From the NCBI RefSeq assembly GCF_000730425.1, contig NZ_CP008896.1, forward strand, positions 5,456,001 through 5,520,000: 64,000 nucleotides of DNA, written 5' to 3'. The position numbers were made by a program, and so were the translations under genes. Of the stretch, positions 7,699-26,123 are shown one piece after another. Position 1 is the first letter of the stretch. Every line of letters begins with the position of its first letter. The DNA comes from Pseudomonas fluorescens. Its GTDB lineage: Bacteria > Pseudomonadota > Gammaproteobacteria > Pseudomonadales > Pseudomonadaceae. The notes under the pieces were generated by a model. The model saw nothing but the letters and a program-made list of their open reading frames with translations. It had not been told where the DNA came from and did not search any database.

Positions 7699-8283
7699 TT
7701 TTTATAACTCACTGTGAGAGTTGACCGCAGAAAAACTACCACTTACTCGGCGCTGGTTGATGCACCCCTGGCGAGGGAGTTACTTCAAAATGCTTCTTCA
7801 GGGACGCCGGTTTTGTGCCGGACGACAGCCCACAACACGGCATTGGCCGCACCTATCACCCCAACCACGCTGCGATATTTTCAGGCACGGACGGTTCGCT
7901 TTGCAGTGAACGGGCGCCCGACCCGCGAGGTGTATGGGGCAGCAGCGTGCGCGATATGGCTTCTGGCATGCCCTAAGGCCGCCACGTTTGGCTGTCATGC
8001 CTTGGAAGTTTTGAGGGGGAGTTTTGCCTGGCGAAATTCACCTAGAAGGAGTGCGCTTATATTTATTTAAATAAATCAATAAAAAACAATGGCTTATTTA
8101 TTTTTTGATTTTGTTTTCCCGTTGCCTATTTACTTAAAATTTGCCTAATGCTTATATTTTGTCGTTAATTCAAAATATAGTTCCGCACAGCGAAATATAT
8201 TGAATTGTAAAAGCTGTAGCGTTCCTTCGTCATTGGCGAGGGGCGAGGGGCTTCACACATAACAACAAAAATAGGGCTGCATC
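7699..8283. other. Intergenic region between the ClpP-like gene and the porin gene
   Basis: About 585 bases without a convincing gene. Short frames exist in 7714-8070 and on the other strand at 7798-7998 but show no domain or start signal. From about 8055 to 8215 the DNA turns markedly AT-rich, unlike its surroundings, and carries the IclR-type dyad at 8180-8196. This part probably holds the porin promoter. Confidence 0.6.
8180..8196. promoter_or_regulatory. IclR-type operator upstream of the porin-MFS unit
   Basis: GTTCCGC-ACA-GCGAAAT, a 17-base dyad of 7-3-7 form found again at 11092, 20301 and 26107. It lies about 90 bases before the porin start, and a wider AATTCAA / TTGAATT repeat at 8167-8173 and 8200-8206 flanks it. 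Assignment to the local IclR protein is inferred. Confidence 0.65.
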
Positions 8284-9549
8284 ATGGAGTGCCATTCCCG
8301 CGTCATTGCTACGTGTCTGCTGGTTTCCATTGGGCAGATAGGCCTGTGCGCCTCGGCGCAGGCGGACTTTTTCGTAGACAGCAAGGCCAGCGTCGAACTG
8401 CGCAACTTTTACATCAATCGCGACTACAGCCAGGCCAGCACCACCCAGTCCAAGCAGGAAGAATGGGCCCAGGGCTTTTTGCTGCGCTACGCATCTGGCT
8501 TTACTGCCGGCCCTGTGGGGTTTGGGCTGGATGCCATCGGCTTGGTTGGCTTGAAGCTCGACTCCAGCCTGGACCGTGCCGGTTCCGGTTTGTTGCCTCG
8601 CCGGCGAGATGGCCATGCGGTCGATGAAAGTGGCTCTCTTGGCCTGACTGCCAAGGTGCGGGCGTCCAAGAGCCTGCTTCGGATCGGGACCTTGCATCCG
8701 CGCCTGCCGGTGGTGCAGTTCAACGACACCCGCTTGCTGCCGCAGACGTTCGAGGGCGTGCATTTGAACGCCCAGGAGTTCGCCAACGTGACCCTTGATG
8801 CCGGGCAGATCCGCCAAGTGACCCAGCGCGACTCCACGAACCGTGAAGACCTGGCGCCCTCAGTGGCCAATGCCAAGGGCATTCGGGTCAGCAAGGGCGC
8901 CACCAGCGATGAGTTCAACTTTGCCGGTGTCGGTTACAAGTGGAGTAACCAGTTAAGTGGCAGCTACTTCTACGGCGAACTCGACCGGTTTTACCGCCAG
9001 CACAATTTCAGCCTGTTGCATGTGCTGCCGCTTGGGGAAGGGCAGTCGCTCAAGAGTGACCTGCGTTATGCCAGGTCCTACAACGAAGGCCAGAGCAATA
9101 TCGATAACACTGCAGTGTCGGCGATGTTCACGTACAGCGTGGGCGGTCACGCCTTTGGCCTGGCCTACCAGAAGATGAGTGGCGACACTGGCTACGCCTA
9201 TATCCATGGCGCCGATGCCTTCCTGCCCAACTTTATCTCCAACAATGACTTTGCCAACCGGGATGAAAAGTCCTGGCAGGCGCGTTACGACTTCAACTTC
9301 GCCGCTGTCGGTATTCCGGGCCTGAGCTTCATGACCCGCTATGTCTACGGCAGTGAGATCGAGTTGGGAGCCGGCAAGCCGACGGGCTCGGAATGGGAGC
9401 GCGATACGGACATTGCCTACGTGTTCCAGGAAGGGGCGTTGAAAAACCTGGGGGTGAAATGGCGTAACTCTTCTTTGCGCATGAACCACTTTGGCAGTGA
9501 TCTGGACGATAACCGCCTGATCGTCAGTTACACCCTGCCACTGCTGTAG
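8284..9549 (+). CDS. OprD-family outer membrane porin
   Basis: Substrate-specific porin of 421 residues. A signal peptide is followed by the OprD-type opening FFVDSKASVELRNFYINRDY; the body alternates as a beta-barrel and the C-terminus ends SYTLPLL. OprD porins take up small carboxylates and amino acids, so this is probably the outer-membrane entry for the acid used by the cluster. It starts the first unit of the regulon, with an MFS gene 57 bases downstream. The exact substrate is unknown. Confidence 0.9.
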   Translation: MECHSRVIATCLLVSIGQIGLCASAQADFFVDSKASVELRNFYINRDYSQASTTQSKQEEWAQGFLLRYASGFTAGPVGFGLDAIGLVGLKLDSSLDRAGSGLLPRRRDGHAVDESGSLGLTAKVRASKSLLRIGTLHPRLPVVQFNDTRLLPQTFEGVHLNAQEFANVTLDAGQIRQVTQRDSTNREDLAPSVANAKGIRVSKGATSDEFNFAGVGYKWSNQLSGSYFYGELDRFYRQHNFSLLHVLPLGEGQSLKSDLRYARSYNEGQSNIDNTAVSAMFTYSVGGHAFGLAYQKMSGDTGYAYIHGADAFLPNFISNNDFANRDEKSWQARYDFNFAAVGIPGLSFMTRYVYGSEIELGAGKPTGSEWERDTDIAYVFQEGALKNLGVKWRNSSLRMNHFGSDLDDNRLIVSYTLPLL

Positions 9550-9606
9550 TCGAGTCGGTAACAGCCCGCCGGGCGGGTCTATAACAACAATGAGGTCGTA
9601 GCGGCT

Positions 9607-10971
9607 ATGAAGAACGCACTTTACCCATCACGTGTACGCGCCTGGTTTACCGTCAGCATACTGATGCTGGCCTATGTCCTGTCCTTCGTTGACCGGCAGA
9701 TTCTCAACCTTCTGGTGGGGCCGATCCGTCACGACATGGATATCAGCGACACGCAGATGAGCCTGTTGATGGGGCTGTCGTTCGCGATTTTCTACACGCT
9801 CTGTGGCATCCCGCTGGGGCGCATTGCCGACAGCAAGAGCCGACGTAACCTGTTGATGTGCGGGATCCTGGTGTGGAGCGGTATGACGGCTGCCTGCGGC
9901 ATGGTCAAAGGCTACTGGCAGTTTCTTTTTTGCCGGATCGGCGTGGCGGCTGGCGAGGCCTCGCTGGCGCCTTGTGCGTATTCGATGATCTCCGACAGCT
10001 TCACCCCCGAGCGTCGCGGTACGGCCTTCAGCGTGTATTCGACGGCGATTTACCTGGGCTCGGGCGTTGCCCTGTTGCTGGGCGGAGTCGCAGTGCACTT
10101 TGCTACCAGTCAGGGCGATATGACATTGCCGCTGATTGGCACGGTGCGCCCGTGGCAAATGGTGTTCCTGATTCTCGGCGCTGTTGGCGTGGTCTTTTCC
10201 CTGTGCTTGCTGTTGTTGCGCGAGCCGGTGCGTCATGGCGTGGGGGCGGGGTTGGAACTGCCGTTTTCGGAGTTCGTCGATTACCTGCGTAAAAACCGGC
10301 GCACCATGCTTTGCCATAACCTGGGCTTTGCTTGCCTGACGTTTACGGCCTACGGCAGCAGTGCCTGGATCCCGACATTTTTTGTGCGTTCGTTCGACAT
10401 GAGCGTACCTGAGGTCGGGGTGATCTACGGCAGCATGCTGGCGATCTGTGGCTCCCTTGGCTTGCTGGTGGGCGGCCGGTTGTGCGACTGGCTGATCAAG
10501 CGTGGTCACCGTGACGCGCCCTTGCGTATCGCAATCCTGGCCGCCGTGCTGACCCTGCCGTCGAACCTGGGCTATCTGGTCGATGATAAGAACCTTGCTC
10601 TGGTGATGATGGCTTTGCACGTCTTCACTGTGAGCATGCCATTCGGCGTCGGTCCCTTGGCCGTGCAAGAAGTCGTGCCCAGCCCGATGCGTGGCCAGGC
10701 ATCGGCTCTTTATCAGTTTGCAGTGACGTTGATCGGCCTGGGGATCGGCCCGACCGCCGTGGCCTTGGGCACCGATTATGTCTTTGGCAGTGACTCGGCG
10801 CTGCGCTATTCGCTGGCGGTGGTGACGGGGGTTTCGCTGGTGCTGGCCGTGGTGATTCTGATGAGCGGCCTGCGTTCGTATCGCGAAAGCCTGGAGCGTC
10901 TCAAAAGCTGGGCGCCCAAGGATCCTACGGTGGCGATACCTGGCCGGCAGGTGCCTGCGGCTGACGCTTGA
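9607..10971 (+). CDS. MFS transporter, probable organic acid carrier of the catabolic cluster
   Basis: Inner-membrane carrier of 454 residues with about 12 hydrophobic segments. The loop-2 MFS motif is GRIADSKSRRN, and FVDRQILNLL in the first helix is typical of the spinster-like/ACS side of the superfamily. It is co-oriented with the porin and ends at a strong terminator, so porin and carrier form one unit. By position it brings the regulon substrate across the inner membrane. In the Acinetobacter dca cluster a carrier and a porin also accompany dicarboxylate oxidation genes. Confidence 0.88.
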   Translation: MKNALYPSRVRAWFTVSILMLAYVLSFVDRQILNLLVGPIRHDMDISDTQMSLLMGLSFAIFYTLCGIPLGRIADSKSRRNLLMCGILVWSGMTAACGMVKGYWQFLFCRIGVAAGEASLAPCAYSMISDSFTPERRGTAFSVYSTAIYLGSGVALLLGGVAVHFATSQGDMTLPLIGTVRPWQMVFLILGAVGVVFSLCLLLLREPVRHGVGAGLELPFSEFVDYLRKNRRTMLCHNLGFACLTFTAYGSSAWIPTFFVRSFDMSVPEVGVIYGSMLAICGSLGLLVGGRLCDWLIKRGHRDAPLRIAILAAVLTLPSNLGYLVDDKNLALVMMALHVFTVSMPFGVGPLAVQEVVPSPMRGQASALYQFAVTLIGLGIGPTAVALGTDYVFGSDSALRYSLAVVTGVSLVLAVVILMSGLRSYRESLERLKSWAPKDPTVAIPGRQVPAADA

Positions 10972-10995
10972 GCCCTCTATTTTTCTGGCCTGATC

Positions 10996-11028
10996 AAGCT
11001 GACACCCCTTGGGTGTCAGCTTTTTTTT
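10996..11028 (+). terminator. Rho-independent terminator after the MFS gene
   Basis: Stem AAGCTGACACCC / GGGTGTCAGCTT with a short CTT loop followed by eight T in total. It separates the porin-carrier unit from the beta-oxidation operon. Confidence 0.95.
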
Positions 11029-11091: not shown

Positions 11092-11108
11092 GTTCCGCAA
11101 TGCGGAAT
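11092..11108. promoter_or_regulatory. IclR-type operator before the beta-oxidation operon
   Basis: GTTCCGC-AAT-GCGGAAT, the most symmetric of the four dyads. It starts about 10 bases after a possible -10 box (TAATAT, 11076-11081, with TTGCCA at 11054-11059), a position suited to repression. A GGTTTCAA half-site follows at 11111. The start codon is 34 bases further on. Confidence 0.7.
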
Positions 11109-11142
11109 ATGGTTTCAATAAAAACAAAATACCGAGGTTCAG

Positions 11143-13248
11143 ATGAATTCCAGCGTGAGCTACGAGCGCCAAGGCGAGATTGCACTGATCACCCTGAACA
11201 ACCCGCCGGTCAACGCCCTCGGCCAGGCCCAGCGTGAAGGCCTGCTGCAAGCCTTGCGCCAGGCACAGGTCGACACGCAGGCCAAGGTGCTGGTGTTGCT
11301 GTGCGCGGGTCGCACCTTTATTGCCGGGGCTGATATCAAGGAGTTCGGCAAGCCGCCTCTGGCGCCGAGCCTGCCGGAAGTGGTCAACGCTTATGAACAC
11401 AGCGACAAACCCTGTGTGGCGGTGATTCACGGCACGGCCCTGGGCGGTGGCCTGGAAATGGCCCTGGGTTGCCATTATCGGATCGCCCGCCGCGATGCCA
11501 GGGTCGGCCTGCCGGAGGTCAAACTCGGGCTGCTGCCGGGAGCCGGTGGTACTCAACGCTTGCCCCGCCTGGCAGGCGTGGCCAAGGCCCTGGAGATGAT
11601 TGTCTCAGGCCAGCCCATCAGCGCCACTCAAGCCCGGGAACAGCACATTGTCGATGAACTGTTCGATGGCGATCCCCGCACCGCCGCCATCGCCTTTGCC
11701 CAGCGGATGCTGGACAACGGCCTGGCTGTGCGGCGCACCGGTGAGCAAACTGCCGCCCTCAAGGGCGTGGACAATGCAGCGTTGATTGCCGCCAAGCGCG
11801 CCGAGGTCGCCAAGCGTTTGCCAGGGTTCTTTTCCCCACCGCGCTGCGTCACGGCGGTCGAGGCGGCAACCCTGCTGCCACTGGCCGAAGGCTTGCAGCG
11901 CGAGCGCGCGCTGTTCCAGGAATGCCTGGCGTCTGAGCAACGCGCGGCGCTGGTGCATGGTTTTTTTGCCGAGCGCCAGTGCGCCCTGATCGACGACCTG
12001 CCCAGGGACACGCCCGTACGCACCGTTGAGCGCGTCGGGGTGATCGGTGGCGGCACCATGGGCGTGGGCATTGCCTTGAGTTTTGTCAGCGCCGGCATTG
12101 CTGTGCTGCTGCTGGAAGTCGACGAGCCAGCCTTGCAGCGGGCACTGCAACGTGCCCGCCAGACCTGCGAAGCCAGCGTGGCTCGTGGCAGCTTGAGCCC
12201 AGTGGTGATGGAGCAACGCCTGGCGCTGCTGCACGGCGGGGTGGACTACAGCGAACTGGCCAGCGCCGACCTGGTCATCGAGGCAGTGTTTGAAAGCCTG
12301 GAGGTCAAGCGCCAGGTGTTTGAGCGCCTGGACCACGTCTGCAAACCCGGCGCGATCCTCGCCAGCAATACGTCGTCGCTGGACCTGGACGTCATCGCCG
12401 GCTTCACTTCACGGGCCCAGGATGTGGTGGGCCTGCACTTTTTCAGCCCGGCCAATGTCATGCGCCTGCTTGAAGTCGTGCGCGGGCGGCACACCGCTTT
12501 CGACGTGTTGGCCACCGTCATGCAACTGAGCAAAAAGCTGAACAAGATTGCCGTGGTGGTGGGCGTCTGTGACGGTTTCGTCGGTAACCGGATGATCTTC
12601 CAATATGGCCGCGAGGCCGAGTTCCTGCTGGAGGAAGGGGCCACCCCGGAGCAAGTGGACGCGGCCTTGCGTACCTTCGGTATGGCCATGGGGCCCAATG
12701 CCATGCGCGACCTGTCGGGGCTGGATATCGGCTGGAGCATCCGCCAGCGTCAGCGCACCACGCTGCCAGCGAACTACCCGCTGCCGGGCGTGCTCGACAA
12801 GCTGTACGCCGCCGGCATGCTCGGCCAGAAGACCGGCAAGGGCTTCTATTGCTATGCCGCCGGTTCCCGCCGTCCCGAGCCGAACCCTGAACTGCTGCCG
12901 TTGCTCGAAGCCGTCTCCCGCGACAAAGGTATCGAGCGCCGCGCCCTGAGCGATGAATACATCGTCGAGCGCTGCCTGTTCGCCTTGATCAACGAGGGCG
13001 CAAAAATCCTTCAGGAAGGCATTGCCCGGCGTAGCAGTGACATCGATGTGATCTACCTCAACGGCTACGGTTTTGCCGCCTGGCGAGGCGGCCCGATGTT
13101 TTATGCCGACAGCCTGGGCCTGGACAAGGTGCTGGCCCGTATTCGCGAGTTCCACCAACGCTTCGGCGCCTGGTGGGAACCCGCGCCGCTGCTGGAAAAA
13201 CTGGCGGCAGAAGGGCGGCGCTTCGCTGACTGGAAACTGGATGCATAA
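11143..13248 (+). CDS. Enoyl-CoA hydratase / 3-hydroxyacyl-CoA dehydrogenase fusion (PimF-like)
   Basis: Two beta-oxidation enzymes in one chain of 701 residues. The N-terminal crotonase domain has both hydratase glutamates, Glu105 (GGGLEMAL) and Glu125 (LPEVKLG), and the AGADIKEF oxyanion segment. From about residue 295 comes the NAD domain with GGGTMG at 302-307, then HFFSPANVM and a two-part C-terminal helical domain. The order and length match PimF and peroxisomal-type multifunctional enzymes rather than a FadBA partner, since no fadA is adjacent. First gene of an operon with two acyl-CoA dehydrogenases and etfBA. Confidence 0.92.
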   Translation: MNSSVSYERQGEIALITLNNPPVNALGQAQREGLLQALRQAQVDTQAKVLVLLCAGRTFIAGADIKEFGKPPLAPSLPEVVNAYEHSDKPCVAVIHGTALGGGLEMALGCHYRIARRDARVGLPEVKLGLLPGAGGTQRLPRLAGVAKALEMIVSGQPISATQAREQHIVDELFDGDPRTAAIAFAQRMLDNGLAVRRTGEQTAALKGVDNAALIAAKRAEVAKRLPGFFSPPRCVTAVEAATLLPLAEGLQRERALFQECLASEQRAALVHGFFAERQCALIDDLPRDTPVRTVERVGVIGGGTMGVGIALSFVSAGIAVLLLEVDEPALQRALQRARQTCEASVARGSLSPVVMEQRLALLHGGVDYSELASADLVIEAVFESLEVKRQVFERLDHVCKPGAILASNTSSLDLDVIAGFTSRAQDVVGLHFFSPANVMRLLEVVRGRHTAFDVLATVMQLSKKLNKIAVVVGVCDGFVGNRMIFQYGREAEFLLEEGATPEQVDAALRTFGMAMGPNAMRDLSGLDIGWSIRQRQRTTLPANYPLPGVLDKLYAAGMLGQKTGKGFYCYAAGSRRPEPNPELLPLLEAVSRDKGIERRALSDEYIVERCLFALINEGAKILQEGIARRSSDIDVIYLNGYGFAAWRGGPMFYADSLGLDKVLARIREFHQRFGAWWEPAPLLEKLAAEGRRFADWKLDA

Positions 13249-13288
13249 CGGCCTGCTTCACGGTCTATCAATGGCTTGGAGAAACAAC

Positions 13289-14485
13289 ATGGATATTCAT
13301 TTTACCGCTGAAGAACTGGCGTTTCGTGATGAAGTCAGGGCCTTCTTGAAGCACAAACTGCCCCAGGACCTGGCCGACAAGGTACGCCTGGGCAAGCCCT
13401 TGTCCAAGGATGACCACCTGCGTTGGCAGGCCATCCAGAATGCTCAGGGTTGGTACGCCACCCATTGGCCGGTGGCCTTTGGCGGTACTGGCTGGGGCGC
13501 CGTGCAAAAGCATATCTATGAAGAGGAATGCGCGCTGGTGGGCGCTCCGCGCAGTATTCCGTTTGGGGTCAACATGGTGGCACCGGTGCTGATCAAGTTC
13601 GGCACGCCACAGCAACAAGACTACTACTTGCCACGCATCCTCAACGGTGCGCACTGGTGGTGCCAGGGCTACTCCGAGCCCGGTGCCGGCTCTGACCTGG
13701 CCTCGTTGAAAACCCGTGCGGTGCGCGAGGGCGACTCTTACATCGTCAATGGCCAGAAGACCTGGACCACCCTGGGCCAGCACGCCAACATGATTTTCTG
13801 CCTGGTGCGCACTGACCCGCAGGCGCAGAAGCAACGGGGTATTTCCTTCCTGTTGATCGATATGGCCAGCCCGGGTATCAGCGTGCGGCCGATCATCACC
13901 CTGGACGGCGAACACGAGGTCAACGAGGTGTTCTTCGACAACGTCAAGGTGCCGGTCGAGAACCTGGTAGGCGAAGAAAACCAAGGCTGGACGTGCGCCA
14001 AATACCTGCTCACCTACGAGCGTACCGGCCTTGCGGGAATCGGCGCATCGAAGGCGGCGCTGGCCCATCTCAAGCGCATTGCCCGCAAACAGATGAGCGA
14101 AGGCCGACCGATCTTCGACGACCCACTGTTCAGGGCCCAGGTCGCGGAGTTGGAAATGCAATTGATGGCCACCGAAATGAGCACCCTGCGCACCCTGGCT
14201 GCGGCCAAGGACGGCGGGGTGCCCGGTGCGGAAAGTTCGATCCTCAAGGTCAAGGGCACCGAAGTCCGTCAGGCCATCAGCCACTTGCTGCGCAAAGTGA
14301 TCGGGCCTTACGCGCTGCCCTATCTGGAAGAAGAACTGGGCCTGGATCATCCGGGCGATCCCCTGCTCGCCGACTACAGCGTGGCGTTGGCCAGCCAGTA
14401 TTTCAACCTGCGCAAGCTGTCGATTTTCGGCGGCTCCAACGAAATTCAGAAAAACATCGTCGCCAAGATGATTCTCGAACTGTAA
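13289..14485 (+). CDS. Acyl-CoA dehydrogenase, catalytic subunit (PimC-like)
   Basis: FAD enzyme of 398 residues that makes the trans-2-enoyl-CoA. YSEPGAGSDLASL and the KTWTT segment form the FAD site. The base used by MCAD-type enzymes is absent (IFGGSNEIQ has Gly there); instead LLTYERTGLAG carries a glutamate, about residue 244, at the position used by isovaleryl- and long-chain acyl-CoA dehydrogenases. PimC, the large subunit of pimeloyl-CoA dehydrogenase, has nearly the same length. The start MDIHFTAEE follows GGAGA; a longer upstream frame overlaps the previous gene and is rejected. The partner subunit follows after 12 bases. Confidence 0.9.
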   Translation: MDIHFTAEELAFRDEVRAFLKHKLPQDLADKVRLGKPLSKDDHLRWQAIQNAQGWYATHWPVAFGGTGWGAVQKHIYEEECALVGAPRSIPFGVNMVAPVLIKFGTPQQQDYYLPRILNGAHWWCQGYSEPGAGSDLASLKTRAVREGDSYIVNGQKTWTTLGQHANMIFCLVRTDPQAQKQRGISFLLIDMASPGISVRPIITLDGEHEVNEVFFDNVKVPVENLVGEENQGWTCAKYLLTYERTGLAGIGASKAALAHLKRIARKQMSEGRPIFDDPLFRAQVAELEMQLMATEMSTLRTLAAAKDGGVPGAESSILKVKGTEVRQAISHLLRKVIGPYALPYLEEELGLDHPGDPLLADYSVALASQYFNLRKLSIFGGSNEIQKNIVAKMILEL

Positions 14486-14497
14486 GGGGCTCTGATC

Positions 14498-15640
14498 ATG
14501 GACTTCAAACTGACCGAAGAGCAGCAGATGCTGCAAGATACCGCCACCCGCCTGGTGCGCGACGCCTACAGCTTCGAGGCACGTGAGCAGTACGCCCGGA
14601 GCGAGGAGGGCTTCAGCCGTGCGTTCTGGCAGCAGCTCGGTGAACTGGGGCTGACGGCGGTGCCATTCCCCGAGGCCCTGGGCGGTTTTGGTGGGGGTGG
14701 CGTCGATACGATGCTGCTGATGACCGAGTTCGGCCGCGGCTTGTGCCTGGAACCTTACGTGGAGTCGGTGATTTATGCCGGTGGCTTGCTGATGCAGCTC
14801 GCCAGCCCGGCCCAGCAGCAAGAGCTGCTGGCGCCAGTGGCCAGCGGGCAATTGCTGCTTGCCACAGCCTTTGAGGAGCAACACAGCCACTACCATTTGA
14901 ACGATGTGCAGACCCGTGCCGAACACAGCGCCGAGGGCTGGACACTGACCGGGCGCAAAGCGGTGGTGATGGGGGGGCATCAGGCCGGCTTGATTCTGGT
15001 CAGCGCGCGGATCAGCGGTGAGAGTCGCGATGAGCACGGCATCGGCCTGTTCCTGATCGATCCGCAGGCCGCTGGCGTCGAGCGTCGTACCTACCCTACG
15101 GTTGATGGTCGCAAAGCCTGCGACCTTTACCTGGACAAGGTAAAGGTCTCTGCCGATCACGTCGTGGGTGAGCCGGGCCAGGCATTGGCAGCCATGCGTT
15201 ATCAGCAAGGGCGGGCCATTGCCGCACAGTGCGCGGATGCCCTGGGCAGCATGCAGGAAGCGTGTCGCCTGACCCTGGAATACCTGAAGACCCGGCAACA
15301 GTTCGGGGTGGCGATTGGTCAGTTCCAGGTGCTGCAGCACCGCATGGTGGACATGCGCACCGACCTGGAACAGGCCACCAGCATGGCCATCCTGGCCGCG
15401 TGCTGCTGCGATGAAGGCGATAGCCTGGAACGCACCAGGACCTTGGCCGCGGCCAAGTTCATCGTCACCCGCGCCGCGCGCAGCATCGCCGAGCAGGCGA
15501 TCCAGCTGCACGGCGGTATCGGCATGACCTGGGAATACACCCTGGCGCATCACGCCAAGCGCCTGGTGATGCTCAGCCATCAGTTCGGAGATGACGACCA
15601 TCACCTCAAGGCCTATGCCGCCTTGCTCGATGCCGCATGA
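14498..15640 (+). CDS. Acyl-CoA dehydrogenase, partner subunit (PimD-like)
   Basis: Second acyl-CoA dehydrogenase of 380 residues, the length of PimD. The fold landmarks are present ([15 protein letters not shown] and [11 protein letters not shown] near the C-terminus), but no glutamate is seen at either catalytic position: helix G reads [10 protein letters not shown], and the chain ends soon after HHAKRLVM without a YEG segment. This suggests a non-catalytic partner in an alpha2beta2 enzyme, as in PimCD and some steroid FadE pairs. It sits between its partner and etfB. Confidence 0.85.
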
Positions 15641-17478: not shown

Positions 17479-18267
17479 TCAGGCGCCCAGGCTTTCGATA
17501 TCCCTGGCCAACATCACCAACTGGTGAGCCAGGGAGCTTTGCAGGGTGTCAGTGGGCAGTTGGAATTTCGGCGCGCCACAGGTCAGTGCCATGATGCTGC
17601 CGTCGGCCAGGCGCAGCGGAACGCCAGCGGCGTTGACGTTGCGGTCCCATTCGCCGAGGGACAGGCAAAAACCGAACTCTTCATACTCGCGGAACGACTC
17701 GTTCAACGAGATCTCCAGGGCCGGCCATTCGTCACCGGCTTTCTTGGCTATTTCGCCGATCAGATGGGCCCGCTCGTTTTCCGGCGTCGCGGCCAGGTAG
17801 GCGCGACCTGCGGCAGTGGTGCTCAACGGCAGGCGCACGCCGGCTTCCATCCGCAGGCTGGCCACATCGGGTGGGCGACAGCTTTCCACGTAGATCATCG
17901 ACAGGCGATCGCGGCAGGTGAGGCCAACGGTGGTGTTGGTGCGCCGTGCGAACTCGTCCATCAGCGGCTTGCCGAGCTGGCGCACCCGCAGGTTGTTGAC
18001 GTAGGCATAACCCAGGGCCAGCACTCCGGAATCGAGCTGGTACTTTTCCACGTCCTGGTTGTAGCTCAGGTAGCCCAGCTGCGTCAGGGTGTAGGTCAGG
18101 CGCGAAACCGTGGGCTTGGGCAGGCCGGTAATCCGGGCGATGTCCTGGTTGCCGCGGGTGACGTTGCCGTGGGTGAACGCGCGCAACACTTCAAGGCCCC
18201 GACTCAGGGCTTCGACGAATTTCCGGTCCTTGGGGTCGTTCTCGGGCGTTTCGATTTCTTCAGTCAT
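17479..18267 (-). CDS. IclR-family transcriptional regulator of the catabolic cluster
   Basis: Regulator of 262 residues close to the PcaR/PobR branch of IclR proteins. The winged helix lies in EALSRGLEVLRAF to ARITGLPKPTVSRLTYTL (about residues 17-60), followed by an effector domain with LPLSTTAAGRAYLA. The start MTEEIETPEND is preferred; an upstream in-frame extension of 33 residues lacks family features, though the ribosome site is weak. It ends a probable three-gene minus-strand operon with a thioesterase and a permease. Dyads of IclR type lie at five places around it, including just upstream, so self-regulation is likely. Confidence 0.9.
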   Translation of the reverse strand: MTEEIETPENDPKDRKFVEALSRGLEVLRAFTHGNVTRGNQDIARITGLPKPTVSRLTYTLTQLGYLSYNQDVEKYQLDSGVLALGYAYVNNLRVRQLGKPLMDEFARRTNTTVGLTCRDRLSMIYVESCRPPDVASLRMEAGVRLPLSTTAAGRAYLAATPENERAHLIGEIAKKAGDEWPALEISLNESFREYEEFGFCLSLGEWDRNVNAAGVPLRLADGSIMALTCGAPKFQLPTDTLQSSLAHQLVMLARDIESLGA

Positions 18268-18389: not shown

Positions 18390-18408
18390 AGCGGAATCCT
18401 GTTCCGCT
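18390..18408. promoter_or_regulatory. Everted operator-like repeat upstream of iclR
   Basis: AGCGGAA-TCCTG-TTCCGCT, a perfect 7-base inverted repeat made of the same half-sites as the regulon dyad but pointing the other way. It overlaps the permease stop codon and lies about 120 bases before the iclR start. A role in autoregulation is inferred. Confidence 0.45.
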
Positions 18409-19738
18409 AGTGCAGCCATTGCACGACCCAGGACAGGGCCAGCAATAGCGGAATGGCGATCAGGGCGAAACGGCCATTCCAGGTGAGGACAATCGTCCAG
18501 GGCGAGGTGCCAGCGGTGCGCGCCAGGATCAGCACGGCGGGCCCGAAGGGTGAGAGCAGCATCGCCAGGGAAAAGGCGCAGACCAGACTGACGGCGGGCC
18601 CCAATGGGTTGATTCCGGCCACCTGCAATTGGGCCAGCAGGCCGGCACACATGCTCAGGGTAATAATCGGCGCGATGCCAACCAGGGCGAGCCCGACCAC
18701 ACCCAGCAGCGCCACGCATTGCAGCCAGAACACCTGCGAGGCGCCGCCCAGCAGCGGCACCAGTTGCTCCAGGGGCACCAGTTGATTGAACAGCGCGCCG
18801 AACAGCGCGGAGCAGCCAAAGATAAAGACCTCGTTGCGCATGCCCGCCAGGTGCTCGGCCAATTCATCGTAGGCCTTGCGCGGGCTTTCCAGGAACAGCC
18901 AGGCACTGACCAGCAGCGGCACCACCATCAGCGAGGCCTGGGTGATGTTCAACCCACTGAAGCTGGCCAACGCCACGATCGCAGCGATGCCCACGGCCGT
19001 GCCGAGCGCAAGAGGGGTGAGAGAGGCGACAGGGACCTCGGGAGATTTGTCCACCAGCGTCTGCAAGTGGCGGTTTTCGCTGCGTGCGCCAATGAACATC
19101 AGCAACACGGTGGCGATCACTCCATAAGGCAGCAGGTCGGTCCACGCCAGGCTTGGCACCTCACGAGTGATGATCGCCACGACAATGCTGGTTGGCGCGA
19201 CCAGGGGCACCAGGGCAAAACCGCGAATGGCGGCGGTCAGTACACCTCGCTGGCCATCACGCCGGCCGAGGTGATCGGGGGCAAAAGGTTGCAGGTAGCT
19301 GTGCAAGGTCGAGCACATCAGGTTGAGCATGCCGAAACTGAGAATTGACCCCAGCCCCAGCGCCGCCAGCACGTAGCGCGGGTAGAGCAGCACGCGTGGC
19401 CCGCGCAACAGAACACGGTGCACCTCCCCAAGCGTCGGCAAGCGCTTGACCAGGCACCCCATCAGCCCCAACCCGGCAATGAACGCTGCGTAATACGCGG
19501 CGGCGCTGCTCATGCGCTGGGCGGCGGGCAGATCCAGGGGGGCCTTGACCAGCCAGAGAGCGAACAACCCCAGCGTCGCCAGGCCCAGGCGCCTGGGGTA
19601 GGGCATGAGTGACTGCCAGTGACGGATAAAGAACAAACCGAACAGCAGCGCCGCGATCAGGCTGAACGCACTGGTACGCGTGCCCAGGGCGATCAGCTCA
19701 CACAGCAGGGCCAGTGGCAGCAGGCGTGTCAGCTTCAC
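18407..19738 (-). CDS. Unrecognised polytopic membrane protein, probable permease
   Basis: Hydrophobic protein of 443 residues with about ten or more membrane segments and few charged loops. No family signature was recognised. The C-terminal part with GPAVLILARTAG and an internal pseudo-repeat recall ion-transporter-type permeases, but this is only an impression. Its start overlaps the thioesterase stop by 4 bases, and iclR follows after about 140 bases on the same strand, so it belongs to the regulator operon. It could import or export a substrate or intermediate of the pathway. Confidence 0.6.
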   Translation of the reverse strand: MKLTRLLPLALLCELIALGTRTSAFSLIAALLFGLFFIRHWQSLMPYPRRLGLATLGLFALWLVKAPLDLPAAQRMSSAAAYYAAFIAGLGLMGCLVKRLPTLGEVHRVLLRGPRVLLYPRYVLAALGLGSILSFGMLNLMCSTLHSYLQPFAPDHLGRRDGQRGVLTAAIRGFALVPLVAPTSIVVAIITREVPSLAWTDLLPYGVIATVLLMFIGARSENRHLQTLVDKSPEVPVASLTPLALGTAVGIAAIVALASFSGLNITQASLMVVPLLVSAWLFLESPRKAYDELAEHLAGMRNEVFIFGCSALFGALFNQLVPLEQLVPLLGGASQVFWLQCVALLGVVGLALVGIAPIITLSMCAGLLAQLQVAGINPLGPAVSLVCAFSLAMLLSPFGPAVLILARTAGTSPWTIVLTWNGRFALIAIPLLLALSWVVQWLH

Positions 19739-20163
19739 GCGGGCAGGCGGCGCAGGCGGCTGCGTTTGAACACGCCTTCGGCGCTGGCCAGCAGGTTGTC
19801 TTCGGCATCGAGTACGTCACAGGCGGCCATGTAGATTTTCGGCCCGCCGCCGCGCACCCGGGCGACTGCCCGTACCCGGCTGCCTGCGGGGGCAGGTGCC
19901 ATGTAATTGATGTTCAGTGACAGGGTCAGGGACAGGCGCCACAGGTCCGGGTCGATGTTCCAGGTTCCGCACATGCCCAGTGCCGAGTCGGCCATGGCTG
20001 CGATCACACCGCCGTGCAGGTTGCCGGCCTGGTTCAGGTGCTCGGGGTTGATCTGCAACGCGATGATGGTCTGCGCCTGGCCGTACTCAACCAGCTCAAG
20101 GCCCAGGTACGCGGCGAATCCACTGAACAGGCCTGTCAGGTCGGCGGGGGGTGAGACGGTCAT
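19735..20163 (-). CDS. Hotdog-fold acyl-CoA thioesterase, PaaI family
   Basis: Small thioesterase of 142 residues. The hotdog helix with catalytic context, NLHGGVIAAMADSALG, is clear, and the strand LTLSLNINYMAPAPAG matches the PaaI/4HBT-like group. Such enzymes release CoA from stalled acyl-CoA intermediates. The start MTVSPPADL (20163) was chosen over a longer frame. First gene of the minus-strand operon with the permease and iclR, divergent from the PaaH-like gene; the shared 171-base gap holds one good and one weak operator. Confidence 0.85.
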   Translation of the reverse strand: MTVSPPADLTGLFSGFAAYLGLELVEYGQAQTIIALQINPEHLNQAGNLHGGVIAAMADSALGMCGTWNIDPDLWRLSLTLSLNINYMAPAPAGSRVRAVARVRGGGPKIYMAACDVLDAEDNLLASAEGVFKRSRLRRLPA

Positions 20164-20227: not shown

Positions 20228-20244
20228 GTTCCGCAAAGAGCCGT
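20228..20244. promoter_or_regulatory. Weak IclR-type operator near the thioesterase start
   Basis: GTTCCGC-AAA-GAGCCGT has a perfect left half-site and a poor right one. It lies 65 bases before the thioesterase start, in the divergent promoter region. Confidence 0.35.
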
Positions 20245-20300
20245 TTTTAGATTGAAGTTGAGCCTGACAATAATTAGTATTCTAGTCAATATGGAATTAG

Positions 20301-20317
20301 GTTCTGCACAGCGAAAC
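20301..20317. promoter_or_regulatory. IclR-type operator before the PaaH-like gene
   Basis: GTTCTGC-ACA-GCGAAAC, the same 7-3-7 dyad as at 8180, 11092 and 26107. It lies 18 bases before the start codon, close to the ribosome site GGAGAAG, so it should overlap the transcription start of the plus-strand unit and may also govern the divergent operon. Confidence 0.65.
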
Positions 20318-20334
20318 ATTAATTCGGAGAAGTC

Positions 20335-21867
20335 ATGTTTTCACGTATCGGTGTGATTGGCAGCGGCGCCATGGGCCGTGGCATTGTTCAAGTGTTTGCG
20401 ACGTCGGGCTGCGAAGTGTTGCTGTATGACGTGCGTCCCGAGGCCGTCGAGCAGGCGCTGAGCTTTAACCGGGAACTGTTGGAACGCCAGGTGGCCAAGG
20501 GCAAACTCAGCCCCGCCCAACTGGAGCAGACCCTGGCGCGCATGCAGCCCGCCGCCAGCCTGCAGGCGTTGGCCGGCTGCGATCTGTTGATCGAAGCGAT
20601 CGTGGAGAACCTGGAAGCCAAGCAAGGGTTGTTCCGTGAGTTGGAGGCCATCGTTGCGCCGAGCGCGGTATTGGCCACCAACACGTCGTCGCTGTCCGTC
20701 ACACGGATCGCCAGCGGTTGCCAACACCCTGAGCGGGTTGCCGGCTTTCACTTCTTCAACCCGGTGCCGCTGATGAAGATCGTCGAGGTGGTGCGCGGCG
20801 AGCGTACCCAGGTGCAGGTGGTCGAGCGCCTGTGTGCGCTGGCCGAGGCGGCTGGCCACTTTGCCGCGCAAACCCCGGACACGCCGGGCTTTCTGGTCAA
20901 CCATGCCGGGCGTGCCTATGGCACTGAAGCCTTGCGTATCCTGGGCGAGAACATTGCCGGTTTCGAGCAGATCGACCGCATTCTGCGCGACGGCCCGGGG
21001 TTTCGCATGGGGCCGTTCGAGTTGTTTGACCTGACGGGCCTGGATATTTCCCACGGGGTGATGGAGTCGATCTACGCGCAGTTTTATGGTGACCCGCGTT
21101 ATACCCCGTCTTACCTGGCCGCCCAACGCGTGGCCGCCGGTTTGCTGGGGCGCAAGAGTGACGGGCAGGGTTTCTACCGCTACGTCGACGGCCAGCCGCT
21201 GCGTTCGCCGCAGCCGGCGCGCGCGGTGGTATCGGTTGAACGTTCCTTCTGGCTCGACAGCCAGGATCGGCAGGTGCGCGCTGAAGTGGCAGCCTTGCTC
21301 GCGGCGGGCGGGGCGACGCTTGAAGAGGCCGCTCAACCACCGGCCAACGCGATCTGCCTGATTACCCCGTTGGGCGAAGACGCCAGCAGTGTGATCGCGC
21401 GCCAGGGTTTACCCGCTGAGCGCACCCTTGCGCTGGATACCTTCTGTGATTTTTCCAAGCGCCTGGTGCTGATGCGCCAACCGGCGCTTGACCCAGGGCT
21501 GGAAGCCCAGGCGGTGCAGGCCCTGGGCAGCAGCGGGGTGCCCATTGAAGTGATCAATGACTCGCCCGGTTTCATCATTCAGCGGGTTGTGGCAAGCGTG
21601 GCCAACCTGGGGGCGGAAATCGTCCAGCGTGGCATCGCCACCCCGGCCACCCTCGACCGCGCGGTGAGGCTGGCGCTGGGTTATCCGCACGGCCCACTGG
21701 CCTTCGCCGAGTTCTATGGCGCAGACAAAATCCTTGCGGTGCTGCGTGGCCTTCAAGGGTGCTATGAGGAGCCGCGCTATCGTCCCAGCCCCTGGCTGCG
21801 CCGCCGGGTTCAGTTGGGGCTGAGCCTGCAAACTCCCGATCAACCCTCTGCCGTGCTGGAGCAATGA
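20335..21867 (+). CDS. 3-hydroxyacyl-CoA dehydrogenase, PaaH type
   Basis: NAD-dependent dehydrogenase of 510 residues, matching PaaH (3-hydroxyadipyl-CoA dehydrogenase) in length and order. The NAD motif GSGAMG is at residues 9-14; EAIVENLEAKQGLF, the catalytic-histidine segment FHFFNPVPLMKIVEVV and the first C-terminal domain (FRMGPFELFDLTGLD) follow. A second, diverged copy of the C-terminal domain runs from about residue 400. PaaH acts on a dicarboxyl-CoA, supporting a dicarboxylate substrate here. Its stop overlaps the thiolase start by 4 bases. Confidence 0.9.
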   Translation: MFSRIGVIGSGAMGRGIVQVFATSGCEVLLYDVRPEAVEQALSFNRELLERQVAKGKLSPAQLEQTLARMQPAASLQALAGCDLLIEAIVENLEAKQGLFRELEAIVAPSAVLATNTSSLSVTRIASGCQHPERVAGFHFFNPVPLMKIVEVVRGERTQVQVVERLCALAEAAGHFAAQTPDTPGFLVNHAGRAYGTEALRILGENIAGFEQIDRILRDGPGFRMGPFELFDLTGLDISHGVMESIYAQFYGDPRYTPSYLAAQRVAAGLLGRKSDGQGFYRYVDGQPLRSPQPARAVVSVERSFWLDSQDRQVRAEVAALLAAGGATLEEAAQPPANAICLITPLGEDASSVIARQGLPAERTLALDTFCDFSKRLVLMRQPALDPGLEAQAVQALGSSGVPIEVINDSPGFIIQRVVASVANLGAEIVQRGIATPATLDRAVRLALGYPHGPLAFAEFYGADKILAVLRGLQGCYEEPRYRPSPWLRRRVQLGLSLQTPDQPSAVLEQ

Positions 21868-23072
21868 CCATGTCTGCTTATATCTATGATGGCCTGCGTA
21901 CCCCCTTTGGCCGCAGCGCCGGGGGCTTGGCCAGCGTGCGCCCGGATGACTTGCTGGGCGAGGTTATCCGTGCCCTGGTGGCGCGCAGCCCGTTCGCCGG
22001 TGCGGACTATGAAGACGTCGTGGCAGGCTGCGCCTGCCAGGCCGGTGAAGATGCGCGCAACGTGGCCCGCAATGCGGCATTGCTCGCGGGGCTGCCACTG
22101 ACCACGGGTGGCCTGACCGTCAACCGCCTGTGCGGTTCGGGGCTGGCGGCGGTGCTGGATGTCAATCGGATGATTCGTTGCGATGAAGGTCAGTTGTTCA
22201 TCGCCGGTGGCACCGAGAGCATGAGTCGTGCGCCGTTTGTGGTCGGCAAGAGTGAGGCTGCATTCTCCCGAGCCTTCCAGGTGTTCGACAGCAGCATCGG
22301 TGCACGCTTTCCCAACCCACGTATCGAGGCCGGGTTTGGCGCCGACAGCATGCCGCAGACCGCCGATAACATTGCGTCTGATCTGGGTATCAGCCGTGCC
22401 GACAGTGATGCGTTCGCGGCACGCAGCCAGGCGTTGTATGCCAAGGCGTTGGCCGAAGGTTTCTATGTTGGGGAGCTGATGTCGGTCCCGGTGCCGCAAG
22501 GGCGCAAGTTGCCGCCCAAGGACATGGCGGCTGATGAGCACCCACGCCCGTCCACCGATGAGCCAGCGCTGGCCCGATTAGGCGCACTGTTTGAGGGGGG
22601 CGTGGTCACCGCGGGTAATGCCTCGGGCATCAACGATGGCGCGGCGGCACTGATCATGGGCAACCGTGCAATCGGTGAGCGTCATGACGTCAAGCCACGG
22701 GCACGGATTGTGGCCGGTGCGGTTGCAGGCGTTGCACCTCGGGTGATGGGCTTGGGGCCGGTTCCCGCGATCCGCAAGGTATTGGCGCGTGCCGGGCTGA
22801 GCCTGGCGCAGATGGACGTGATTGAAATCAATGAGGCCTTTGCCACCCAGGTATTGGGGTGCGCCAAAGAGTTGGGCCTGGCCTTTGACGACCCCCGCTT
22901 GAATGCCCAGGGCGGTGCGATTGCCATTGGCCATCCGCTGGGTGCTTCGGGGGCCCGCCTGGTCCTGACGGCCTTGCGTAGCCTGGAGCGCCAGCAAGGG
23001 CGCTACGCCTTGGTGAGCCTGTGTATCGGGATTGGCCAGGGCATCGCCTGTGTGATCGAGCGCCTCGACTGA
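21864..23072 (+). CDS. Thiolase, PcaF/PaaJ-like (3-oxoadipyl-CoA thiolase type)
   Basis: Splits a 3-ketoacyl-CoA with CoA. This 402-residue protein resembles PcaF strongly: RTPFGRSAGGLASVRPDDL, GCACQAGEDARNVARN, MSRAPFVVGKSEAAFSRA and DEHPRPSTDE. The nucleophile is Cys90 (NRLCGSG); the later His is in GHPLGASGA and the second Cys in CIGIGQG. By analogy it yields acetyl-CoA and succinyl-CoA from 3-oxoadipyl-CoA. It is translationally coupled to the PaaH-like gene (ATGA overlap); MSAY six bases later is an alternative start. Confidence 0.92.
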   Translation: MTMSAYIYDGLRTPFGRSAGGLASVRPDDLLGEVIRALVARSPFAGADYEDVVAGCACQAGEDARNVARNAALLAGLPLTTGGLTVNRLCGSGLAAVLDVNRMIRCDEGQLFIAGGTESMSRAPFVVGKSEAAFSRAFQVFDSSIGARFPNPRIEAGFGADSMPQTADNIASDLGISRADSDAFAARSQALYAKALAEGFYVGELMSVPVPQGRKLPPKDMAADEHPRPSTDEPALARLGALFEGGVVTAGNASGINDGAAALIMGNRAIGERHDVKPRARIVAGAVAGVAPRVMGLGPVPAIRKVLARAGLSLAQMDVIEINEAFATQVLGCAKELGLAFDDPRLNAQGGAIAIGHPLGASGARLVLTALRSLERQQGRYALVSLCIGIGQGIACVIERLD

Positions 23073-23081
23073 AGCCCCACG

Positions 23082-23119
23082 CCCCCGGTAGGAGCCGGCT
23101 TGCCAGCTCCTACCGGGGG
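23082..23119. terminator. Bidirectional hairpin between convergent thiolase genes
   Basis: Perfect 14-bp stem CCCCCGGTAGGAGC / GCTCCTACCGGGGG around the loop CGGCTTGCCA. The loop and inner stem are a REP core, so a REP element seems to form the hairpin. It fills the short gap between the two stop codons and probably ends transcription both ways. Confidence 0.7.
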
Positions 23120-24304
23120 TCAGACGACCTCGAACAGGCCGGCAGCCCCTTGCCCGCCGCCGATGCACATGGTCACCACCACATAGCGGGCGCCGCGCCG
23201 CTTGCCTTCGATCAGGGCATGACCGGTCAGGCGTGAGCCGGTGACGCCATAAGGATGGCCGATGGCGATGGAGCCGCCATTGACGTTCATTTTTTCCAGG
23301 GGAATGCCCAGTTTTTCGCGGCAGTAGATCACCTGCGAGGCGAAGGCTTCATTGAGCTCCCACACGTCGATATCGTCGATCGTCAGGCCGTTGCGCTTGA
23401 GCAGGCGCGGGATGGCGTAGACCGGGCCGATACCCATCTCGTCCGGCTCGCAACCGGCCACCGCAAACCCACGGAAAATCCCCAGCGGCTCCAGATTGTT
23501 GCGTTCGGCATACAGGCTGTCCATGACCAGGCACACCGACGCCCCGTCGGACAACTGGCTGGCATTGCCCGCTGTGACGAATTGCCCGGCACCGCGCACC
23601 GGCTCCAGCAAGGCCAGGTTTTGCAGGGTGGTAGACGGGCGGTTGCACTCGTCCCGAGTGAGGGTGACGGCCTGCTCGCTGACCTCGCCACTGTGTTTAT
23701 CCTTGACCAGCATTTGTGTGGTGAAAGGGACAATTTCAGCGTCGAACAGACCTGCCGCCTGGGCAGCGGCGGTGCGCTGCTGGCTGAGTAGGGCGTATTC
23801 GTCCTGGGCTTCGCGGCTGATGTTGTAGCGGCGGGCAACGATGTCGGCGGTTTCAATCATCGACAGGTACAGCTCGGGTTTGTGTTCCTGCAACCACGGG
23901 TTCTGGCTGCGATAGGTATTGAGCTTGTCGTTTTGCAGCAGGCTGATGGATTCCACGCCGCCGGCGATCATCGCCGGGACTTTCTCCGACACGATACGCT
24001 GTGCCGCGAGGGCAATGGCTTGCAGCCCCGAGCTGCAAAAGCGGTTGATCGACAACCCTGCCGTTGCAGTGGACAGCCCGCCACGGATGGCTGCCAGGCG
24101 CGCCATGTTCTTGCCCTGGGCGCCCTCATGAAACGTTGCACCGAGGATCACATCTTCAATCAAGCCCGGATCAATCCCGGCACGGGCCACGGCTTCCTGG
24201 ATCACATGCCCGGCCAGGTCGATGCTATGGGTGTTGTTCAGGGCGCCCCGGTAGGATTTGCCCAGGGCGGTACGCGCGGTGGAGACAATAACGGCGTCAG
24301 ACAT
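23120..24304 (-). CDS. Acetyl-CoA acyltransferase (thiolase), PimB-like
   Basis: Second thiolase of the cluster, 394 residues. Nucleophile Cys90 in [21 protein letters not shown] and [15 protein letters not shown] complete the active site. [13 protein letters not shown] and [18 protein letters not shown] match my recollection of PimB from the Rhodopseudomonas pim operon better than FadA. It should shorten the longer dicarboxyl- or acyl-CoA intermediates. The ATG at 24304 lies 3 bases after the ligase stop; the TTG one codon earlier is less likely. Same operon as the ligase. Confidence 0.9.
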
Positions 24305-24307
24305 CAA

Positions 24308-25993
24308 TCAGCTTCCTGTGCCAGAAATAGTGGGGGCGTGGGCGGCCCATTCTTCATCCTGCAATTGACGCCACAGCAGTTTGCCGGCACCTGACTGCGG
24401 CAGATGCTCGCGAAACTCGAGGGTGGCCGGGACTTTGTAGGCCGACATATTGGCCTTGCACCATTCGATGATGTCGCTGGCGGTGGTGTCCTGCCGCCCG
24501 GGATGCAGGGTCACCAGGGCTTTGACCGCTTCACCGCGGCGCGCGTCGGGTGAAGAGATGACGCAGCATTGTTTGATCGCTGGATGGCGGTACATCAGGC
24601 TTTCGACCTCCGAAGGCCAGACCTTGTAGCCGGAGGCGTTGATCATGCGTTTGATGCGGTCGACCATGAAGAAATAGCCATCTTCGTCGTAGTAACCCAG
24701 ATCGCCGGTGCGTAGGAAGCGTTTGCCTTCCAGTTCGATAAAGGCTTTTTCGGTGTCCTGGGGGAGCCGCCAGTAGCCTTTGAAAATCTGCGGGCCCCGG
24801 CAGATGATTTCTCCCACCTCGTGGGGCGCCAACTCCAGCCCGGTCGTACTGTCGATGACGCGTGAGTCCACGTCGAACGCCGGAATCCCCAGGCATTGGG
24901 ATTTGCTGCGCGCCTTGGGGTTCATATGGGTCGCGGCCATGGTTTCGGTCATGCCATAACCTTCGATGTAGTCCAGGCCCAATAACTGCTTGAGCTTGTC
25001 CTTGACCGGGCCGGGCATCGCCGCGCCGCCGCCGCCAATGTAGTTCAGGCTCGACAGGTCATAGCGACCAAGCCCGTCCTGGGTCAGGAAGTCCACGGCC
25101 ATGGTGACGATATTGGACCAGTTGCTGACGCGATAACGCTGCATCAACTGCGCGGCGACTTCGCGGTTCCAGCGGGTCATGACCACCACACAGGCCCCAC
25201 TGAAAATCGGCCCGTTCATGGACGACTGCATGCCGGCGACATGGAACAGTGGCAACGTGGTCAGCACCACGTCTTCGCAATTGCGGTTGGTCCAGGCCTG
25301 GCGGTGCACCGTCGTTGCCATTACCGATGCGTGTGTATGCAGGCACCCCTTGGGCACCCCGGTCGTGCCTGAGCTGTAAGGCATCACGCAGTGGTCGTCG
25401 GCGCCACTCAGGTGTGGGCCAGGACGTTGCCCGCAATCGAGTGCGGCCTGCCAGCACGTCACGCCAGGCAGCGCTGGCGTTTCAACCGGGGCAAGCAGCT
25501 CGGGCGGCAGGGGCAGGTCGGTGGGGGTGCGCAGGTACTCGGAGTAAGCCGTCGTCAACACGTGGCGCAGCTTGAAGCGCCCGAGCAGCGGAGTGACAAA
25601 CGGTGCGAGATCCTGGGCGCAGACGACGATCTCGCCATCCGTATCGTGCAGGTAGTGTTCCAGTTCGCTGGCGCGGCTCATGGGGTTGAGCGGCACCACC
25701 ATGGCATCGGCGCGCAGGGCGGCGTAGTAGGTGATGATGAATTGCGGCGAGTTCTGCATGAACAGCAGAACCCGGTCGCCACGCTTGATCCCCTGGGATT
25801 GGAAATACCCGGCCAGGCGTTCTACCTCATCGAGCAACTGGGCGTAGGTGATGAGGGTGTCGTAGTAGATGATCGCAGTCTTTTGCGGATAACGCCGGGC
25901 AGCGATCTCCAGGTTACAGAACAGACTGGTAGCCGGCAGTGTCAGGTGGTGGGGGGCACCCTCCGGCCAATGGGGCAGGTGACGGTTGAACAT
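24308..25993 (-). CDS. Acyl-CoA synthetase (AMP-forming), PimA-like
   Basis: Activates the incoming acid to its CoA thioester using ATP. The 561-residue ANL enzyme shows the P-loop YSSGTTGVPKGCLHTH, GYGMTETMAATH, TGDLGYYDEDGYFF and the hinge segment VDRIKRMINASGYKVWPSEV. The C-terminal catalytic lysine is in QSGAGKLLWRQL. First gene of a two-gene operon with the PimB-like thiolase; an IclR-type dyad lies about 115 bases upstream. Substrate specificity cannot be read from the sequence, but PimA is the natural counterpart in this gene set. Confidence 0.92.
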   Translation of the reverse strand: MFNRHLPHWPEGAPHHLTLPATSLFCNLEIAARRYPQKTAIIYYDTLITYAQLLDEVERLAGYFQSQGIKRGDRVLLFMQNSPQFIITYYAALRADAMVVPLNPMSRASELEHYLHDTDGEIVVCAQDLAPFVTPLLGRFKLRHVLTTAYSEYLRTPTDLPLPPELLAPVETPALPGVTCWQAALDCGQRPGPHLSGADDHCVMPYSSGTTGVPKGCLHTHASVMATTVHRQAWTNRNCEDVVLTTLPLFHVAGMQSSMNGPIFSGACVVVMTRWNREVAAQLMQRYRVSNWSNIVTMAVDFLTQDGLGRYDLSSLNYIGGGGAAMPGPVKDKLKQLLGLDYIEGYGMTETMAATHMNPKARSKSQCLGIPAFDVDSRVIDSTTGLELAPHEVGEIICRGPQIFKGYWRLPQDTEKAFIELEGKRFLRTGDLGYYDEDGYFFMVDRIKRMINASGYKVWPSEVESLMYRHPAIKQCCVISSPDARRGEAVKALVTLHPGRQDTTASDIIEWCKANMSAYKVPATLEFREHLPQSGAGKLLWRQLQDEEWAAHAPTISGTGS

Positions 25994-26106
25994 TCTAAAA
26001 CCCTATTGTTATGAGTCTGGGTTAATCGATATGCGGGCGGTGTGGCGGTGCCATCTCGCTGGAGATTTGCACGCAATGCGGCTTGGTGTCAAATATACGG
26101 AATATG

Positions 26107-26123
26107 GTTTCGCTATGCGGAAC
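26107..26123. promoter_or_regulatory. IclR-type operator before the ligase-thiolase operon
   Basis: GTTTCGC-TAT-GCGGAAC; its reverse complement GTTCCGCATAGCGAAAC matches the other dyads closely. A further half-site (ACGGAATATGG) lies beside it at 26097-26107, repeating the GGAATATGGTTTC arrangement seen at 11104. The last base overlaps the isomerase stop codon. Confidence 0.7.

Follow-up and report, generated by a model that had tools for sequence, protein, structure and literature searches.

Which genes does the IclR-family regulator within a catabolic gene cluster of Pseudomonas fluorescens control, and through which DNA element would it do so? We addressed this question in a window of 64,000 nucleotides (assembly GCF_000730425.1, contig NZ_CP008896.1, positions 5,456,001 to 5,520,000), part of a single 6.06-Mb contig, in which the cluster spans approximately 8.2 to 26 kb. 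An earlier sequence-only reading had attributed four 17-base dyads, starting at 8180, 11092, 20301 and 26107, to the only IclR gene in the window. All four dyads were found exactly there, and of eight matches to PF01614 (IclR_C) in the genome a single one falls within the window. That reading had noticed no copy elsewhere in the window and had missed a fifth dyad, at 8021. With it, the set comprises the following candidate operators:

8021..8037, distal dyad GTTTTGCCTGGCGAAAT upstream of oprD; five other genomes have it in this position too (G104 with one mismatch)
8180..8196, proximal dyad GTTCCGCACAGCGAAAT before oprD, 159 base pairs (bp) from the 8021 dyad
11092..11108, dyad GTTCCGCAATGCGGAAT before the fadB-like operon
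20301..20317, dyad GTTCTGCACAGCGAAAC between the thioesterase-iclR unit and paaH
26107..26123, dyad GTTTCGCTATGCGGAAC before the ligase-thiolase unit

We consider it likely that these dyads are operators of the IclR protein encoded at 17479-18267, which would repress the units of the cluster until an acid or coenzyme A (CoA) ester releases it, with a possible role as activator at the ligase. Binding, the sign of regulation and the inducer are inferred.

Genome-wide specificity and conservation in relatives both support such a regulon. Without mismatches, the pattern GTTYYGCNNNGCRRAAY, which covers the four dyads described earlier, occurs at six distinct places in the genome, namely these four, the dyad at 8021 and C1:1776406, the last of them beside another iclR gene. 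The self-complementary pattern RTTYYGCNNNGCRRAAY is found at seven places in the 6.06-Mb genome, as compared to one for the reversed control. Five of them lie in the cluster and two before the paralogous iclR gene at 1776 kb, and all seven are at iclR loci of one subfamily. A scan for matches at unrelated promoters returned exact copies only at the cluster and before another iclR gene of the same subfamily. The third such gene, at 763 kb, is adjoined by two copies with one mismatch each, C1:763883 and 764044. Throughout the genome, the pattern with one mismatch allowed gives 73 strand matches, including tens of scattered singles, and the reversed control gives 79; the claim is therefore based on exact matches and on where they lie.

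As to sequence class, the dyads conform to the consensus GKTYCRYW3-4RYGRAMC, a palindrome with a TTYCG..CGRAA core, of the group 1 IclR operators (PMC8222616). The dyads at 8021 (TTTTG) and 20301 (TTCTG) each deviate from the TTYCG core at one position in one half. A near-identical pattern with three mismatches occurs in the window about as often as chance predicts (35 matches against 32.1), so weak copies elsewhere are meaningless. The same figure might suggest that the dyads themselves are a non-regulatory repeat or chance palindromes, but the exact copies are specific to iclR loci, lie between genes and are retained where the flanking DNA is not. On the whole-genome count and the conservation we rejected this explanation, which we regard as highly improbable.

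Conservation was analyzed in a genus set of 398 genomes, 45 of which contain an IclR match at E<=1e-60. Orthologues, defined by at least 75% identity, are present in 13 genomes including our own, and sites were compared in the stretches around 12 orthologues and four relatives of 49-50% identity. As expected for a conserved regulon, sites recur in the relatives before oprD (as a pair), fadB, paaH and the ligase gene, barring a few misses that we return to below. Four genomes with another gene order have a site between the thioesterase and a ligase gene. A site precedes fadB in nine of nine genomes whose fadB orthologue start fell in the examined stretch (our own and eight others). The four nearest genomes prove little by themselves because they are close relatives, with IclR proteins 99-100% identical. 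More informative are G104, G203, G342 and the group at 82%, where the dyad is kept in altered flanking DNA, the clearest case being the region upstream of fadB in G342. Sites persist in other Pseudomonas species and in other genera where the flanking DNA diverges.

In the 16 genomes with the regulator or a relative of 49-50% identity, 49 of 76 exact matches lie within approximately 14 kb of an iclR gene of the subfamily (reversed control, 19 matches); the remaining 27 amount to 1.7 per genome. A similar density was obtained in 20 genomes without an IclR match at E<=1e-60, with 46 exact matches, or 2.3 per genome, and 25 for the reversed control. From the 48-54% matches of a family-wide search we picked 20 loci, 19 of which fit the window IclR best and are termed window-type here. 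Within 420 bp upstream of these iclR genes, an exact dyad is present in 15 of 19 cases and a dyad with one mismatch in three. The sites stand at defined positions, are conserved, and are linked to this IclR subfamily.

The genes of the cluster and their neighbors are as follows:

8284..9549, plus strand, OprD-family outer-membrane porin (oprD; family search)
9607..10971, plus strand, MFS transporter (family search)
11143..13248, plus strand, FadB/FadJ-like enoyl-CoA hydratase / 3-hydroxyacyl-CoA dehydrogenase (fadB-like; family search)
13268..14485, plus strand, PimC-like acyl-CoA dehydrogenase (start codon tentative)
14498..15640, plus strand, PimD-like acyl-CoA dehydrogenase (family search)
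15672..16436, plus strand, electron-transfer flavoprotein (ETF) beta subunit
16439..17368, plus strand, ETF alpha subunit
17479..18267, minus strand, iclR regulator gene, 262 amino acids (best NCBIfam match PcaR/PcaU/PobR, below cut-off)
18407..19738, minus strand, predicted membrane protein of 443 amino acids with 13 hydrophobic stretches
19735..20163, minus strand, hotdog-fold thioesterase (start assigned by eye)
20335..21867, plus strand, PaaH-like 3-hydroxyacyl-CoA dehydrogenase (paaH; family search)
21864..23072, plus strand, 3-oxoadipyl-CoA thiolase (pcaF-like; NF006001, over cut-off)
23120..24307, minus strand, acetyl-CoA C-acyltransferase (NF005494, over cut-off)
24308..25993, minus strand, long-chain acyl-CoA ligase (NF006181, over cut-off)
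26123..26923, minus strand, enoyl-CoA hydratase family gene, upstream neighbor of the ligase-thiolase unit

Such a set of enzymes points to dicarboxylic acids or similar acyl-CoAs as the compounds that undergo beta-oxidation here. The pim genes serve pimelate degradation in Rhodopseudomonas palustris, and the two acyl-CoA dehydrogenases of the cluster match the pimC and pimD models best, with a FadB-like protein, a thiolase and a ligase nearby. The pimC, pimD and pimA models are, however, all matched below their cut-offs, so the substrate class is a prediction, and the present cluster has oprD, MFS, ETF, paaH-like and pcaF-like genes. The dyad at 26107 follows the enoyl-CoA hydratase stop codon and precedes the acyl-CoA ligase start; the hydratase gene is probably not under the control of this site. 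The 443-residue protein, encoded between the thioesterase gene and iclR, gave no match in NCBIfam, Pfam or PDB sequences and may be an unrecognized transporter. Between its gene and iclR we also observed an inverted repeat, AGCGGAATCCTGTTCCGCT (18390-18408), that by eye resembles outward-turned operator halves. Adjoining the cluster, an open reading frame of 252 amino acids (6940-7698, minus strand) matched nothing in Pfam or NCBIfam.

The position of the dyads relative to predicted promoters bears on the sign of regulation. At oprD, the 8180 dyad is downstream of the promoter TTTACT-18-TATATT predicted by promoter scan at 8129-8158. The fadB dyad starts 10 bp after the conserved predicted promoter TTGCCA-16-TAATAT, behind a terminator-like stem (10996-11022) that separates it from the MFS gene. 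At paaH the dyad is downstream of a conserved CTGACA-17-CAATAT read by eye, and the promoter scan gives TTTAGA-17-AATAAT at 20246-20274 instead, with the dyad downstream of either candidate. This placement at oprD, fadB and paaH fits a repressor.

Further half-sites flank the dyads or stand close to them:

8170..8176, minus strand, possible third half-site 3 bp from the 8180 dyad (6/7)
11112..11118, plus strand, possible third half-site at the fadB dyad (5/7)
20291..20297, minus strand, possible third half-site at the 20301 dyad (5/7; the other flank also scores 5/7, so the side is ambiguous)
26097..26103, minus strand, third half-site ATTCCGT between the ligase dyad and a conserved TTGACA (6/7)
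20228..20235, plus strand, conserved half-site GTTCCGCA, 73 bp from the 20301 dyad

With the gap set to 3 bp, the third half-site scores a mean of 5.11/7 over nine sites of our own genome, as compared to 1.89-3.78 at the other 25 gaps. Seven of the nine sites reach at least 5, with 8021 (2) and 763883 (4) falling short, and in the relatives the 3-bp offset is among the best five in eight of nine site classes. A third half-site of alternating direction beside the palindrome, the hallmark of the three-box operators of IclR proteins, is thus found here as well, and the predicted operator is often larger than the dyad, with three half-sites, and sometimes paired. A weaker copy had been described at 20228, before the operon that ends with iclR. 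As a full second copy this was rejected, since only the left half of the site is present; the half itself is kept 71-73 bp from the full site in ten of ten genomes examined. It is situated directly upstream of the thioesterase-iclR unit and may serve autoregulation of iclR.

In the mechanism that we propose, an IclR dimer would bind the dyad, and probably two dimers would occupy three-box or paired operators. Bound IclR would repress the uptake genes (porin and MFS), the fadB-pimCD-etf operon, the paaH-pcaF operon and, via the half-site, the thioesterase-iclR unit, until it is released by a dicarboxylate of the pathway or the corresponding CoA ester. Where the operator is upstream of a conserved -35 box, at the ligase-thiolase unit, the same IclR may activate.

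A number of observations weigh against a regulon of repression sites that belongs to this one protein. The G203 ligase gene and the G324 thioesterase gene are without a site of up to one mismatch, and at one of the 19 window-type iclR loci the upstream 420 bp contain no dyad. The promoter scan does not list the promoters that we identified by eye at paaH and at the ligase gene. Another IclR protein, C1:5395435, has a rather similar recognition helix, RLPKATVSRML, with no exact dyad near. The ligase dyad ends 14 bp upstream of the conserved TTGACA (-35 box, by eye), and with the extra half-site in between this arrangement would fit activation. Finally, the best subfamily match of the regulator, TIGR02431, contains activators. 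Membership in the IclR family as such is clear from PF09339 (HTH_IclR, 56.8 bits) and PF01614 (70.6 bits), with cut-offs of 22 and 24, respectively. TIGR02431 (PcaR/PcaU/PobR) is the best match in NCBIfam, at 123.7 bits against a cut-off of 284.75; the protein is outside this group by score but may work like one of its members.

The regulator could accordingly be an activator or dual regulator in the manner of PcaU and PobR, with three-box operators that are mainly activation sites. Such operators have been described for PcaU, PobR and HmgR, with predictions for 32 IclR groups (PMC8222616), and the extra half-site beside the palindrome is common to these systems and ours. However, the dyads at oprD, fadB and paaH lie downstream of the predicted -10 box, where bound protein would block the polymerase, and we consider this alternative unlikely.

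A second alternative concerns the identity of the protein. The operator sequence is not private to the window IclR, since the same dyads stand at the genes of two paralogous regulators, which might therefore bind the cluster sites, too. The window IclR is 39% identical to each of them, and they are 68% identical to each other. The recognition-helix region GLPKPTV[ST]R[LM]T is common to the three IclR proteins with dyads nearby, whose helices are near-identical, and is clearly different in four other IclR proteins of the genome. Genes of acyl-CoA metabolism adjoin all three iclR genes. Both paralogous loci, C1:757000-771000 (L024) and C1:1770000-1784000 (L023), hold acyl-CoA dehydrogenase and CaiB-type CoA-transferase-like genes; the matches to CaiB-type succinate-glutarate CoA-transferase are below the cut-off, and those of an enoyl-CoA hydratase and a PaaH-like enzyme are over theirs. 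The divergent gene of the 1776 locus is a CoA transferase here and an enoyl-CoA hydratase in many relatives. With one operator class at all three loci, near-identical helices and acyl-CoA enzymes at each, the sites might in vivo be bound mainly by a paralogue (C1:763 kb or C1:1776 kb) or by all three proteins, so that the regulon would be shared. Against this, seven of the 13 orthologue genomes showed no second subfamily member at E<=1e-60 among the up to six candidates scored per genome, and those of the seven that were examined carry the sites. We see a shared regulon as a possibility of some weight, though not the probable one, and continue to favor the window IclR as the repressor that acts on the dyads.

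The motif class and the three-box form are already published for IclR proteins (PMC8222616). Suvorova and Gelfand (2021) describe the group 1 operator subgroups GTT-11-AAC and WTT-11-AAW, and their GTTYCRYW3RYGRAAC / WTTYCRYW3RYGRAAW comes close to covering RTTYYGCNNNGCRRAAY. Both cases have three boxes of alternating direction and tandem sites, but the distances between sites that we found reported there are 18-22 nucleotides and about three and four turns, whereas the pairs described here are near 160 bp. The main text of that paper does not contain the words dicarboxylate, pimel-, adip- or fatty acid. A PcaR of P. putida reportedly responds to several diacids, adipic and glutaric acid among them (PMC12543098). 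The PcaR/PcaU/PobR operators of the beta-ketoadipate pathway have a CGC/GCG core, in contrast to CGATWATCG here, where genes of acyl-CoA beta-oxidation are the predicted targets and the protein is below the family cut-off. AzeR of Pseudomonas nitroreducens, an IclR-family protein for azelaic acid described as a repressor in an editorial (PMC7398563), is similarly tied to beta-oxidation-like use of a dicarboxylic acid (PMC10945470, PMC7398563). In Phycobacter, azeR stands beside the transporter genes azeTSL, whereas the family searches of our cluster named no azeTSL. Literature searches, mainly of non-subscription papers, listed no direct precedent. What these results contribute is the named regulon, the operator sequence common to three regulators and the constant operator spacing, the last of which was less expected.

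This spacing raises the further question of how paired operators act. The oprD pair is 159-161 bp apart in six of six genomes (our own and five others, with one mismatch in the outer dyad of G104). For the promoters of the paralogues we examined 107 loci, which after removal of 19 window-type loci and nine repeated places left 79, and searched for pairs with up to two mismatches per site. A pair at 160-163 bp is present in 64 of the 79, one at another distance in 13 (118, 119, 120, 138 twice, 146 three times, 148, 151, 164, 165 and 167 bp) and none in two. Nine relatives outside the family presented a strong single site, a fair single site, several weaker sites and two weak sites in one case each, and none in five, so that pairing is not universal. 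When 292 relatives of G263 were searched for additional members of the clade at 50%, no new one emerged. At three loci (L164, L165 and L166) we observed three dyads per promoter upstream of iclR, at 0, 119-120 and 161-162 bp and with one or two mismatches each, which combines two spacings known from other loci, 42 bp apart.

In the 1776 clade the spacing is 160 or 161 bp at 22 of 22 loci, with 160 bp at our own locus. The stretch between the operators, 143-145 bp long, has a median identity of 66%, and of 56% in its middle (24 rows, three of which repeat a locus). Our control, the spacer that separates iclR from the acyl-CoA dehydrogenase gene, is 48, 61 or 63-64 bp long with a median identity of 86%. 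In the 763 clade, sites are 160-162 bp apart at a median identity of 62%, operators included (12 sequences), and the control spacer is 57-61 bp long at 78% (14 loci). Length thus seems to be held while sequence drifts, as the spacing is constant at a lower identity than that of the control; with one short spacer for control, the argument is of moderate strength.

A spacing of about 160 bp is found both at the paralogues' divergent promoters and at the oprD promoter, which is unrelated to them. We tentatively propose that this IclR clade represses by bridging operators that are about 160 bp or 15 helical turns apart, in a protein-held loop whose size is set by the regulator; the half-site at 71-73 bp would then be a second, shorter contact at the iclR operon. 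The loop may exist and is a fair hypothesis, not a result. The spacing is held within Pseudomonas clades. Several points count against a loop: the 763 and 1776 clades share a common descent, which leaves oprD as the sole independent case; 13 of 77 pairs deviate from 160-163 bp, mostly in other genera; and most relatives outside the family have no pair. Strict helical phasing was dropped once other genera were included: over 14 spacing classes, other genera among them, it is unsupported (Rayleigh p 0.28-0.37 for repeats of 10.4-11.0 bp). Among the papers listed on IclR proteins and DNA looping (15 of 127 matches in one search, one in another), mainly non-subscription, we found nothing relevant.

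For an uncharacterized regulator, these results name candidate targets, an operator sequence and the probable class of substrate, which makes it accessible to testing, and its pathway is of a type that is of interest for the breakdown of plastic-derived diacids. Three regulators with one operator sequence lead to the direct prediction of cross-talk between acid-degradation pathways. Should the pairing at about 160 bp stem from looping, IclR proteins would be added to the few repressors that form loops.

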